From Parolsenella massiliensis (GTDB lineage Bacteria; Actinomycetota; Coriobacteriia; Coriobacteriales; Atopobiaceae), in assembly GCF_900143685.1 (NCBI RefSeq), contig NZ_LT671675.1, positions 657,111 through 721,110 on the forward strand: a stretch of 64,000 nt of DNA. The letters are read 5' to 3'. Below the pieces are notes generated by a model. That model was not told where the DNA came from. It saw only the letters and a program-made list of their open reading frames with translations, and ran no database searches. A program made the position numbers and the translations under genes. Shown here in pieces: positions 55,337 to 59,921 of this stretch (position 1 is its first letter; every line of letters starts with the position of its first letter).

Positions 55337-56614
55337 ATGGATTCCAAGTCATTCGTCCTCAAGGGCAACGTCTGCTACAACACCACGCCCCAGGAGGTGT
55401 GCTGCGTCGAGGGCGGCTATGCCGTGTGTGTAGACGGCGTCTCCGCCGGCGTGTTCGACGAGCTGCCCGAGAAGTACGCGGGCCTGCCGCTTGTCGACTG
55501 CGGCGACAACCTCGTTATCCCGGGCATGAGCGACATCCACATCCACGCCCCGCAGTACGCGTTTCGCGGCCTAGGCATGGACCTTGAGCTGCTCGACTGG
55601 CTGAACACCCACACGTTTCCCGAGGAGGCCCACTACGCAGACCTCGCCTACGCCGAGCGCGCCTACGGCATCTTTGCGAGCGACCTGCGCCATTCGCCCA
55701 CGACGCGCGCCGTCGTCTTTGGCACGATGCACGTCGAGGCCACCGAGCTGCTCATGGACAAGCTCGAGGTCACGGGCCTTGCCACGTATGTGGGCAAGGT
55801 GAACATGGACCGCAACGGCGGCGAGAACCTTGAGGAGGACACCGCCCAGTCCGCTGCTGACACCCGTCGCTGGCTCGCAGACGTCGAGGGCCGCTACGAC
55901 CACACGGCGCCCATCATCACGCCACGCTTCACCCCGAGCGTCACCGACGGGCTCATGGCCGAGCTTGCCGACATCGCGCACGAGTTGGGCCTGCCCGTCC
56001 AGAGCCACCTGTCCGAGAACCCCTCGGAGTGCGGCTGGGTCAAGGAGCTGTGCCCGTGGTCGAGCTGCTATGGCGACGCCTACGACCACTTTGGCCTGCT
56101 TGGCCCGCGCACGGTCATGGCCCACTGCATTTACTCCGATAAGACCGAGACCGAGCTTCTGCGTAGCAGCGGCACCTACGTGGCCCACTGCCCGCAGTCA
56201 AACGCCCAGCTCTCGAGCGGCATCGCGCCCATCCGCCGCTACCTTGACCTGGGCATGAACGTGGGCCTGGGCACCGACGTCGCCGGCGGCGCCAACCTGT
56301 CGATGTTCCGCTGCATGGCAGACGCCGTGGCCGTCTCGAAGCTGCGCTGGAGACTCGTGGACGACTCGCTTCCCGCGCTCACCACGCAGGAAGCGCTGTG
56401 GCTCGCCACGGCCGGCGGCGGCTCGTTCTTTGGCCGTGTTGGCTCGCTTGCCGAGGGCTACGAGTTCGATGCCCTCGTGCTCGACGACTCCAACATCGCC
56501 ACCCCGCGTGACCTTAGCGTCTGGGAGCGCCTCGAGCGCTACGTCTACCTGGCGGAGGAGGGCGGCCGCCTCGTGCGCAAGTACGTCTCGGGCCGCGAGA
56601 TTGATCTCTCCTAG
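55337..56614 (+). CDS. guaD: Guanine deaminase
   Basis: A 425-residue amidohydrolase-fold enzyme that converts guanine to xanthine and ammonia. Zinc ligands: HIHAPQYAFRG (His68 and His70), VQSHLSENPSE, MAHCIYSD and GLGTDVAGGANLSM (Asp). CPQSNAQLSSG is the usual guanine-deaminase loop. The product xanthine would feed the molybdenum hydroxylase and purine ring-opening genes beginning at 58551. The start ATG 55337 follows AGGAG; the frame is open 30 residues further upstream through hairpins. Probably in one transcript with the dead permease. Confidence 0.9.
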   Translation: MDSKSFVLKGNVCYNTTPQEVCCVEGGYAVCVDGVSAGVFDELPEKYAGLPLVDCGDNLVIPGMSDIHIHAPQYAFRGLGMDLELLDWLNTHTFPEEAHYADLAYAERAYGIFASDLRHSPTTRAVVFGTMHVEATELLMDKLEVTGLATYVGKVNMDRNGGENLEEDTAQSAADTRRWLADVEGRYDHTAPIITPRFTPSVTDGLMAELADIAHELGLPVQSHLSENPSECGWVKELCPWSSCYGDAYDHFGLLGPRTVMAHCIYSDKTETELLRSSGTYVAHCPQSNAQLSSGIAPIRRYLDLGMNVGLGTDVAGGANLSMFRCMADAVAVSKLRWRLVDDSLPALTTQEALWLATAGGGSFFGRVGSLAEGYEFDALVLDDSNIATPRDLSVWERLERYVYLAEEGGRLVRKYVSGREIDLS

Positions 56615-56696: not shown

Positions 56697-56711
56697 GGGC
56701 CCCTCTCGACT
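56697..56711 (+). terminator. guaD terminator, left half (split by IS)
   Basis: GGGCCCCTCTCG is the left arm; its partner CGGGAGGGGCCC is at 58162-58173. ACT (56709-56711) is the original loop and is now the target-site duplication of the inserted element. Confidence 0.8.
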
Positions 56712-56748
56712 TGAACTGCGCCCCAAAACTTGGACGCCTGAATAGCGA

Positions 56749-57653
56749 CTAGGCCGTGAGGGCCTGTCTCCGGAACTCCTCCGGGGTCAGGCCCTTCAAT
56801 CTTACCTGCCTCCGGCGCGTGTTCCAGTGGACGACGTACGCCTCGAGGTCGCGCTTGAAGTCCTCGAAGCTGTCCCACTCGCAGCCCCGGTAGAACTCGT
56901 CCTTGACGTGGCCGAAGAGCTGCTCGGTGGCGGCGTTGTCGATGCAGTTGCCCTTGCGGGACATGCTCTGGGCGATGCCAGCCTCCCTGAGCCTCGCCGC
57001 GTACCGCTCGTGCTGATACTGCCAGCCCATGTCCGAGTGCATGACCGGCGACGCCCCCTCCGGGAGCCTCGCCAGGAGCTCATCCAGCATCCTAAGCTGC
57101 TGGGTCATGTCGGGCGAGGCCGAGACGTCGCTCGCCACGATCTCCTTGGTGCAGAAGTCCAGCGTGGGCGCCCAATAGGCCTTGCCGCCGGCCACCTTGA
57201 ACTCGGTGACGTCCGTGCCGAGCTTCTCCCACGGGGCGCCGGCGGCGAAGTCCCGGGCGAGCAGGTTCTCGAACGTGCTGCCCACGACTCCCCTGTACGA
57301 GCTGTACCTGTGGTAGGCGGTCTCGCGGCGTATGCCGCAGCGGATCCCCATCTCGCGCATCATCTTGAGCACCGTCTTGTCGGCGATCACGGCGCCCTCC
57401 TCCGCCCTGAGGCACATCGCGACCTGGCGGTGGCCGCAGCCGTTGGCGGTGCGGGAGAAGATCTCGGCCGCCGCCTCCCAGAGCTCCGGTCTCGTCGGCC
57501 GCGGCGGGTGCGCCAGGGCGTAGTAGTAGGTCGACCTTGCGAGCCCCGAGCACGCGAGCAGGTGCCGCAGCGAGTGCCCCTCGGCGCGCAGGGCCGCGAC
57601 CGCCTCGGCCTTCGCCCCGGTCAGAGCCCGTCCCGCTCGGCCAGGGCGCGCAA
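56749..57653 (-). CDS. IS3-family transposase OrfB (frameshift product)
   Basis: About 300 residues read in the -1 frame relative to OrfA. The integrase core has the DDE triad: TDVTEFKV (first Asp), HSDMGWQYQH (second Asp) and DNAATEQLFGHVKDE (Glu). HTH_21-like region RSTYYYALAHPP precedes it. It has no good start of its own; the slippery A7 at 57654-57660 lets ribosomes move from OrfA (KK|IARPG) to give the full OrfAB transposase. Confidence 0.9.
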
Positions 57654-58112
57654 TTTTTTTAGGTAGGCGACCTCGGCCTCGAGCCTGCGGCAGCGTTCCT
57701 CGAGCTCCTCCTCGCGGCTCCTCGGCCCGGGCCCCGCGGCCTTCGGCCTGCCCCTGGGCTTCGGGCGCAGCGCCTCCGCGCCGCCCTCCCGGTAGAGCCT
57801 GCACCAGCGGTCGAGGGGAGACTTCGACATGATGCCGAACCTGGCCATCGCCGCCGGCCTTGGCATCCCGCGGTCGACGACGGCCGAGGCGGCGGCGACC
57901 CTCTGCTCGTACGTGTACCTGGCCTGCTTCCCGTCCATGCGCAGCAGCACCTCGCTCCCGAACGCGCGGTATATCTCCTGCCATTTTCTCACGGCGGCAA
58001 TCGGGGCCGGGAGGCTGGCGGCGACCGACCTGCAGCCCAGTCCAGAGGAGAAGAGCTCCGCGGCCCTCCTCCTCACCCCGACGTCGTATCTAAACCTGAG
58101 GTCCGCCCGCAT
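57621..58112 (-). CDS. IS3-family transposase OrfA
   Basis: A 163-residue DNA-binding part of the transposase. Two HTH segments (RRAAELFSSGLGCRSVAASL; MARFGIMSKSPLDRWCRLYR) are followed by a basic linker and a leucine-zipper-like end (EELEERCRRLEAEVAYLKKL). The ATG at 58112 follows GGGAGG inside the element; the frame is open beyond the IS end but that start would lie in flanking DNA. Confidence 0.88.
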   Translation of the reverse strand: MRADLRFRYDVGVRRRAAELFSSGLGCRSVAASLPAPIAAVRKWQEIYRAFGSEVLLRMDGKQARYTYEQRVAAASAVVDRGMPRPAAMARFGIMSKSPLDRWCRLYREGGAEALRPKPRGRPKAAGPGPRSREEELEERCRRLEAEVAYLKKLRALAERDGL

Positions 58113-58158
58113 GAGAAAGCCTCCCATTTCTCGTGTCCAAGAAATGGGAGGCAGTTCA

Positions 58159-58180
58159 ACTCGGGAGGGGCCCTTATTTG
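58159..58180 (+). terminator. guaD terminator, right half (split by IS)
   Basis: CGGGAGGGGCCC (58162-58173) followed by TTATTTG. Joined to 56697-56708 it would give a fully paired 12-bp stem (one G-U) with loop ACT, a textbook terminator 80 nt after guaD. Confidence 0.8.
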
Positions 58181-58550: not shown

Positions 58551-59921
58551 ATGCTAAGGGAGCACATGCTTATTGTCGGTAATGGTCGCGTCATCACCCG
58601 CGATGACGAGAAGCCCTACCTCGAGCACGGCGCGGTTGCCATCTACGGAGACACCATCGTTGCGGTGGGAGACGAGGCCGAGCTCAAGGCCGCCAACCCC
58701 GGCTACGAGTACGTCGACGCCCACGGCGGCGTCATCATGCCGGGCCTCGTGAACTGCCACACCCACATCTACTCGGGCCTGGCCCGCGGCCTGGCAATCG
58801 ATGGCTGCAACCCCACGAACTTCCTCGAGAACCTCGAGCAGCAGTGGTGGAAGATCGACGACAACCTCACGCTCGACGGCACGCGCGCCAGCGCCTACGC
58901 CACGATCCTCGACTCGCTTCGTGACGGCGTCACCACGATCTTCGACCACCACGCGAGCTTCTGCGAGATTCCCGGCTCCCTGTTCGCCATCAAGGACGTC
59001 GCCAAGGAGCTCGGCATGCGCTCCTGCCTGTGCTACGAGGTCTCCGACCGCCGCGGCCAGGAGAAGTGCGACCAGTCGATCGCCGAGAACGCCGAGTTCG
59101 CCCAGTGGGCCCACGACGCGCGCGAGAAGGACAACGACACGATGATCGCCGCCATGTTCGGCGGCCACGCCACGTTCACCCTCTCCGACGAGACGATGGA
59201 CAAGATGGCCGAGGCCAACAACGGCCTCACGGGCTTCCACATCCACGTCTGCGAGGGCATGAACGACGTGTGGGACTCCCGTAAGAACCGCGGCGGCATC
59301 CCGCCCGTGGAGCGCCTGCTGCAGCACAACCTGCTTGGCCCCGACACCATGCTCGGCCACTGCATCCACGTGACGCCCGCCGAGATGGACATCATCAAGG
59401 ACTCCGGCACCTGGCTCGTCAACAACCCCGAGTCCAACATGGGCAACGCCGTGGGCTGCGCCCCGGTCCTGGAGTTCATGCGCCGCGGCATCCCAGTGTG
59501 CATGGGCACGGACGCCTACACCCATGACATGCTCGAGAGCCTCAAGGTCTTCCTCGTCATCCAGCGCCACAACGCCGCCATGCCCAACGTGGGCTGGGGC
59601 GAGGCCATGACGATGCTGTTCAAGAACAACTACGCGATGGCCTCCAAGTACTTCGGCCGCACGTTCGGCAAGCTCGCCCCCGGCGCCGCCGCAGACGTCA
59701 TCGTCATGGACTACCCGGTGTTCACGCCCTTCTCCGGCGACAACATCGACGGCCACATGCTGTTCGGCATGATGGGCAAGAACTGCCGCACCACGATCGT
59801 CAACGGCCGTGTCCTCTACAAGGACCGCGAGTTCGTTGCCTTCGACGAGGAGCGCATCAACGCCTGGACGCTCGAGCAGTCCAAGAAGCTGTGGGGCACG
59901 CTGAACAACCGCAGCTACTAA
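58551..59921 (+). CDS. ssnA: Putative aminohydrolase SsnA
   Basis: A 456-residue amidohydrolase-fold protein of the SsnA family. Zinc motif NCHTHIYSG (His70, His72), HATFTLSDE, FHIHVCEGMND, GHCIHVTP and VCMGTDAYTHDM (Asp). SsnA is found in purine/urate catabolic clusters with YgfK and molybdenum hydroxylases, and probably deaminates or opens a purine-derived ring; its exact reaction is not settled by sequence. Two tandem ribosome-site/start pairs exist: AAGGGAGCACC-ATG (58551) and AAGGGAGCAC-ATG (58566). The second matches the family N-terminus (MLIVGNG). Confidence 0.9.
   Translation: MLREHMLIVGNGRVITRDDEKPYLEHGAVAIYGDTIVAVGDEAELKAANPGYEYVDAHGGVIMPGLVNCHTHIYSGLARGLAIDGCNPTNFLENLEQQWWKIDDNLTLDGTRASAYATILDSLRDGVTTIFDHHASFCEIPGSLFAIKDVAKELGMRSCLCYEVSDRRGQEKCDQSIAENAEFAQWAHDAREKDNDTMIAAMFGGHATFTLSDETMDKMAEANNGLTGFHIHVCEGMNDVWDSRKNRGGIPPVERLLQHNLLGPDTMLGHCIHVTPAEMDIIKDSGTWLVNNPESNMGNAVGCAPVLEFMRRGIPVCMGTDAYTHDMLESLKVFLVIQRHNAAMPNVGWGEAMTMLFKNNYAMASKYFGRTFGKLAPGAAADVIVMDYPVFTPFSGDNIDGHMLFGMMGKNCRTTIVNGRVLYKDREFVAFDEERINAWTLEQSKKLWGTLNNRSY

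Follow-up and report, generated by a model that had tools for sequence, protein, structure and literature searches.

A clade of IS3-family elements related to IS150 probably targets stem-loops, as exemplified by an insertion between guaD and ssnA of Parolsenella massiliensis

Many insertion sequences (IS) have little target preference, and an IS3-family element placed exactly in the 3-nt loop of a terminator-type hairpin raises the question of whether this is a coincidence or one instance of a targeting habit. The element lies between a guaD-like guanine deaminase gene (55337–56614, plus strand) and ssnA, the next downstream gene (58551–59921, plus strand), in the window, i.e., the whole 64,000-nucleotide stretch of Parolsenella massiliensis DNA that was analysed. 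The target hairpin begins 82 nt beyond the stop codon of guaD. Its left arm, GGGCCCCTCTCG (56697–56708, plus strand), is followed by the first copy of the target-site duplication (TSD), ACT (56709–56711, plus strand), which is the entire loop. Next come the IS itself, 1447 bp long and on the minus strand (56712–58158; ends TGAACTGC...GCAGTTCA, defined by comparing copies), and then, on the plus strand, the second ACT (58159–58161), the right arm CGGGAGGGGCCC (58162–58173), and a T-rich tail, TTATTT (58174–58179). After removal of the IS and one ACT, the site reads AGGGCCCCTCTCG-ACT-CGGGAGGGGCCCT and forms one hairpin with the loop ACT and a stem of 12 bp, or 13 bp with the outer A–T pair given by A 56696; the fold of 45 nt of the rebuilt site has −27.5 kcal/mol (z −3.9 against shuffles). 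Direct reading and folding confirm the original prediction of an IS3-family element in a 3-nt terminator-type loop identical to the duplicated ACT, although the stem is not “perfect”, as had been claimed, since it contains one G–T (G–U) pair, and the T-tract is weak. Of the gene names used there, SsnA is secure (615.8 bits against the NF005540 cut-off of 444), while GuaD stays below the curated cut-off of its model (TIGR02967, 328.8 against 375.4 bits). The argument that such a landing is improbable by chance also holds, as a stem score of at least 9 (defined below) is reached at 2.9% of 62,370 window positions. In a sister species with a 91% identical GuaD, the guaD–ssnA gap is IS-free and contains, at a comparable position, its own stem-loop of different sequence, followed by TTTTT.

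The element shows the hallmarks of the IS3 family. The orfB frame (56749–57660, minus strand) encodes a DDE integrase-type transposase (NF033516, 249.7 bits, cut-off 160; rve, HTH_21), in which the DD(35)E residues D150, D210, and E246 are invariant among 14 aligned proteins, with 35 residues between D210 and E246. According to its translation, orfA (57621–58112, minus strand) encodes a helix-turn-helix protein (HTH_28 and others), and the overlap of the two frames contains a slippery A7 run (57654–57660, minus strand), at which a −1 frameshift would give the OrfAB product. Nearly all copies have 5'-TG...CA-3' ends, and most clade insertions carry a TSD of 3–4 bp. We define the clade here as elements with OrfB at least 55% identical to that of the window. 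In a quickly built tree of 86 OrfB rows, with support by SH-aLRT only, all clade members are placed together (100), relatives with 48–53% identity form the sister group, and IS150, ISEnfa3, and others fall outside. The nearest named proteins to the clade OrfB are of the IS150 type, and the tree, which did not include IS2, IS51, or IS407, places these outside the clade. It is also worth noticing that the left inverted repeat of the IS pairs with a stretch containing the Shine-Dalgarno-like GGGAGG of orfA, forming a leader hairpin (58119–58152, minus strand; 13-bp perfect inverted repeat, fold z −4.2). Its arms co-vary, GCACC/GGTGC replacing CCTCCC/GGGAGG in Bifidobacterium and some other copies, which suggests that a fold on the Shine-Dalgarno-like stretch may control the transposase at the RNA level in read-through transcripts. 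In the same genome, one palindrome of about 46 bp, TGAACGGCCTCCC...GGGAGGCCGTTCA, was found (91332–91378; positions 1501–1547 of locus L006), which begins and ends with terminal bases of the IS and has AAC on either side; it looks like a miniature element made from the IS leader hairpin.

To ask whether such a target is a habit of the element, copies were collected and their target sites rebuilt. A scan of genome contigs gave 80 loci (Coriobacteriia, Schaalia, Actinomyces, Rothia, Bifidobacterium, and others). More loci came from searching 396 genomes across the class, and of these a chosen subset was used, with long contigs and multi-copy genomes taken first and one batch consisting mostly of intermediate or weaker matches. 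Of the 195 loci examined, 110 are unique insertions flanked by sequence on both sides, 36 repeat the flanks of another locus (mostly one genome in two collections), and 49 are incomplete because bases are masked or fewer than two flanks are usable; an extra match to an own-genome copy (L122) was excluded beforehand, and the IS ends of L108 were not settled. The clade set consists of 107 unique insertions from Coriobacteriia, Schaalia/Actinomyces, and Bifidobacterium. Each site was scored, with the TSD collapsed, by the best ungapped stem that places the junction within its loop, and stems with a score of at least 9 are called strong; an early measure, restricted to offsets of at most 7 on each side, missed larger loops. 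Copies from one genome are partly related events, and the p-values given below are therefore optimistic.

The genome of P. massiliensis contains five full, near-identical copies of the IS, the window copy and four others, and complementary arms flank all five, with stem scores of 9.8–15.8. The stems, given in the orientation of the window IS, are all different: GGGCCCCTCTCG, CGGGGCCGTCCG, AAAGGGCCACCGC, GTTCGGGGCCGCCTC, and AAGGGGCCGCCG. The last of them belongs to a copy (L002) without TSD, with a 12-nt loop and two G–T pairs on the transposase strand. Since the arms differ among copies whose IS is near-identical, the possibility that the hairpin arms are part of the IS was ruled out.

The same arrangement was found across the clade. 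A strong stem exactly at the junction is present in 72 of the 107 insertions (mean score 10.66), compared with 274 of 4240 pairs (6.5%) in which flanks of different insertions were swapped and 103 of 4280 random positions of the same loci. Other copies at random, non-hairpin sites, the outcome that would have spoken against the original prediction, are not the pattern observed. When the junction was displaced along the sequence, the proportion of strong stems was 67% at offsets 0 and −1, about 1% at +7 to +12, and 5–6% at −9 to −14, so that the return to near background takes about 7 nt on the right side and 9–15 nt on the left; at positions 40–120 nt from the junction, 2.9% of 17,334 reached 9. 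This profile rules out pure coincidence. A measure admitting wider loops raised the background (3.9% of 3210 far positions) and left the count at 72/107. Minimum-free-energy folding gave a weaker contrast (79/107, against 673/2140 random and 1070/2122 swapped sites) because GC-rich DNA folds readily. One further copy in another genome, outside the 107, scored 12.5. With all five own-genome copies, 72 clade insertions, and a sharp peak at the junction, the hairpin targeting proposed in the original prediction is upheld.

A score of 9 was not reached in 35 of the 107 clade insertions, some of which have longer loops or bulges. Among them, none of five copies in one genome (G314) reached 9, and these have larger loops in TGTCCCC repeats; no clear hairpin was seen at L047, L121, L168, L188, and L201. 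Hairpin insertions nevertheless occur on most branches of the OrfB tree, Bifidobacterium included. In the sister group, L205 has a clear hairpin target, the own flanks of L203 and L206 form no hairpin, and L204 and L207, which complete the set of five intermediate relatives, offer a single flank only. However, the left flank of L204 and the right flank of L203, both from genome G284, together form one hairpin with a score of 10.6, compared with 3.2 for L203 with its own flanks, as expected from recombination between copies or from an assembly joining error. For L210–L212, no short-loop hairpin was visible by eye, and L211 scored 8.2 in the loose measure.

What the target sites have in common is the pairing of their arms, not their sequence. 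The positional information is at most 0.39 bits, with almost no common sequence; the stems are GC-rich at 11–15 nt on both sides, and an A-rich left and a T-rich right side follow at 19–22 nt. By the measure used, loop lengths vary from 3 to 14 nt. Among the 64 strong sites with a TSD, the duplication lies wholly within the loop in 55 and equals the loop in seven, as it does in the window. The duplicated sequences vary freely across copies, contrary to the ACT-like targets that had been expected, and a fixed target of this kind is ruled out. In some hosts the targets are repeated palindromes: near-identical GACGAGGCCGGGG arms enclose several copies in Schaalia, and CCTTTGTGGTGG arms enclose four copies in a Collinsella genome (G140). 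An A-rich tail on the left only accompanies 13 of the 72 strong stems, a T-rich tail on the right only 11, both occur in 5, and neither in 43; there is no bias in IS orientation relative to the tail among the strong sites. Because such a tail is present at only 29/72 strong sites, it is safer to call the targets “stem-loops, often terminators” than “terminators”. The proposed targeting of terminators was therefore correct as to hairpins and went too far as to terminator status, some targets being repeated REP-like palindromes.

A TSD of 3–4 bp was found in 87 of the 107 insertions, three of them with one extra base, and none in the remaining 20. Two of these three cases are the own-genome copies L004 and L005 (at 1356940 and 406754), in which the extra base lies between the IS 3' end and the TSD. 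Strong stems are more frequent among TSD-bearing insertions (64/87) than among those without (8/20; p 0.007). For IS150, adjacent deletions without duplication are reported in the available part of one source (PMC11708052), and the TSD-less copies are probably recombinants or products of adjacent deletions.

Is this a general property of IS3 elements? Other IS3 elements from eight actinobacterial genomes, whose insertions are under the same kind of selection as those of the clade, reached 9 in none of 24 insertions, against 72/107 in the clade (Fisher p 2e-10); two of the 24, both at one repeated site, reached 7. For this comparison, 30 loci were fetched and six dropped, namely G073 copies in repeats of their own ends and two G561 copies with uncertain ends. 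The second IS3 element of the own genome scored 2.9 and 4.3 at its two sites with short loops; with loops of up to 24 nt, however, the values were 12.1 and 8.0, which counts against the contrast. Another IS3 element with the ends GGGGGTGCGGAC is present in G075 (L305–L307) and in the own genome (L095/L096), and it may be sequence-specific, because all three G075 copies lie at one repeated sequence, GGCGTTT/TTTGTGAACG. Of the four copies of the G073 element (L301–L304, ends TGATGTGGC...GCCACATCA), three are embedded in repeats of the element's terminal 9-mer. With short loops, none of seven unique E. coli sites of IS150 (17 loci) reached 7. A relative on an E. coli plasmid scored 8.1 and ISEnfa3 5.8, one site each, and IS150-like elements may therefore have a milder tendency toward hairpins. 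Most of the chromosomal IS150 copies sampled from E. coli (L226–L240) neighbour hokA or hokB, and some of the sampled copies are at imperfect, widely spaced GCCcC...GaGGC repeats. The search of E. coli genomes with IS150 DNA matched mostly IS150 and did not find IS1397; of its other matches, the IS3 relative L223 is broken and L224 is short, and neither was used.

As judged from the rebuilt sequences, the analysis showed that the arms are complementary, that the stem-loop is centred on the junction, that the TSD lies mostly in the loop, and that the other IS3 elements tested differ. These data support the view that the window insertion is one instance of a genuine targeting preference rather than coincidental. 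We regard it as quite probable that an IS3 clade related to IS150 inserts in the loops of stem-loops, with a 3-bp stagger in or at the loop and hardly any demand on the bases. The choice would be made by the transposase and not by the host, because comparable hosts contain other IS3 elements that show no such targeting. In the proposed mechanism, the OrfAB transposase, perhaps via the helix-turn-helix of OrfA, would capture the palindrome as an extruded cruciform or a single-strand hairpin and join the 3' ends across the unpaired loop. The common stem-loops of GC-rich actinobacteria would be intrinsic terminators and REP-like palindromes, so that the IS would collect at gene ends, where insertions probably do little harm. 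That the transposase of this clade, across several actinobacterial families, picks DNA by shape, accepting extruded hairpins of any sequence and joining across the loop, is a proposal to which we give an even chance. If it is correct, then targeting of terminators could be independent of both sequence and guide RNA.

The 3-bp stagger over the loop fits such joining to a cruciform or hairpin, and the traces would look no different if a dimer had bound the palindrome as duplex DNA. The transposase may thus read two symmetric GC-rich half-sites in duplex DNA with no extruded hairpin, an explanation that we consider possible, if somewhat doubtful. The mirror-image GC peak at 11–15 nt and the A/T-rich positions at 19–22 nt on both sides are in its favour, and the GC block could be a weak duplex motif; the available part of PMC1525189 also suggests that IS3 transposases read REP palindromes in the manner of regulators. 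However, the information of at most 0.39 bits per position, loop lengths that vary from 3 to 14, and arm pairing that is specific to each site, falling from 67% to 6.5% when arms are swapped, argue against such half-sites. Sequence could also enter in another way, if one repeated REP-like family were targeted in the manner of IS1397 and terminators were hit by resemblance. The repeated arms in Schaalia (GACGAGGCCGGGG) and around the four G140 copies (CCTTTGTGGTGG) would agree with this, yet the five targets of the own genome differ in both stem and loop and a clade-wide consensus is absent, which makes it distinctly improbable.

Targeting might also be indirect, with the IS drawn to RNA polymerase that has paused or is terminating, or to forks with their single-stranded DNA, and the hairpin merely marking the place. 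In our estimate this is unlikely: the terminator-like tail at 29/72 strong sites is what would be expected, but by the criterion used the tail is absent at 43/72, and tails on the A side (13) and T side (11) are about equal, and therefore no direction of transcription is preferred. Selection by itself would require that insertions occur anywhere, that those in genes are lost, and that the survivors remain in terminator-rich gaps at gene ends. Terminators do lie in such gaps, and insertions there are likely to be mild. Nevertheless, the background is regained within about 7–15 nt inside the same gaps, with 2.9% at 40–120 nt, and other IS3 elements under the same selection gave 0/24. Pure selection is ruled out by the offset profile unless it acts to the base, and we hold it to be scarcely credible.

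If the targeting of stem-loops is accepted, then a clade that lands a few bases from hairpin loops, from Collinsella to Schaalia to Bifidobacterium, is a natural set for studying how DDE transposases sense shape, and its comparison with IS150, about 40% identical and without the habit in the tested sites, may show which domain decides the target. The clade also bears on the idea, suggested by IS1272 and REP-targeting elements, that terminators in general offer mobile elements a safe place to insert. Its insertions split terminators, and read-through may change. The pairs of hairpin arms flanking an IS can further serve to reveal whether copies have since recombined with each other.

In the open-licence literature, which mostly leaves out subscription journals and is thus weak evidence of absence, no paper was found that describes this clade or a general targeting of terminators by IS3 elements, and the available parts of PMC6211511 and PMC12915315 do not mention such targets. 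Several known systems share some of its features; what is said of them from the literature follows the available parts of the cited sources. IS150, the nearest named relative tested (OrfB 39.6% identity), makes 3-bp duplications like the clade, from which it differs in its E. coli target sites (0/7 reaching 7, short loops). ISPsy8, an IS3 element of Pseudomonas syringae, resembles the clade in its 3-bp duplication and its insertion at the symmetry axis of a predicted hairpin, but it uses a fixed position of one REP family, whereas the hairpins of the clade are of unrelated sequence (PMC1525189). IS1397 and ISKpn1, also of the IS3 family, have palindromic targets and a choice attributed to the transposase, as in the clade (cited in PMC1525189). 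Unlike the clade, and compared by description alone, they are specific for REP sequences of E. coli and Klebsiella (PMC1525189); a single repeated palindrome family of the IS1397 type is not what the clade uses, its targets having no consensus. IS1272/TnSha1, of the IS1182 family, target hairpins without sequence consensus, like the clade (PMC4923244, PMC5678879), and several target hairpins of IS1272 were confirmed as terminators by RNA-seq (PMC4923244). Their transposase belongs to another family, and their insertion leaves no TSD and removes the stem-loop partly or wholly (PMC4923244, PMC5678879). Such replacement of the stem-loop is not what the clade shows, most of whose insertions keep both arms and carry a TSD. 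REP-targeting IS3 elements and IS1272 at terminators were thus known; what appears to be new, from the sequences compared here, is an IS3 clade that makes duplications and uses hairpins of unrelated sequence.
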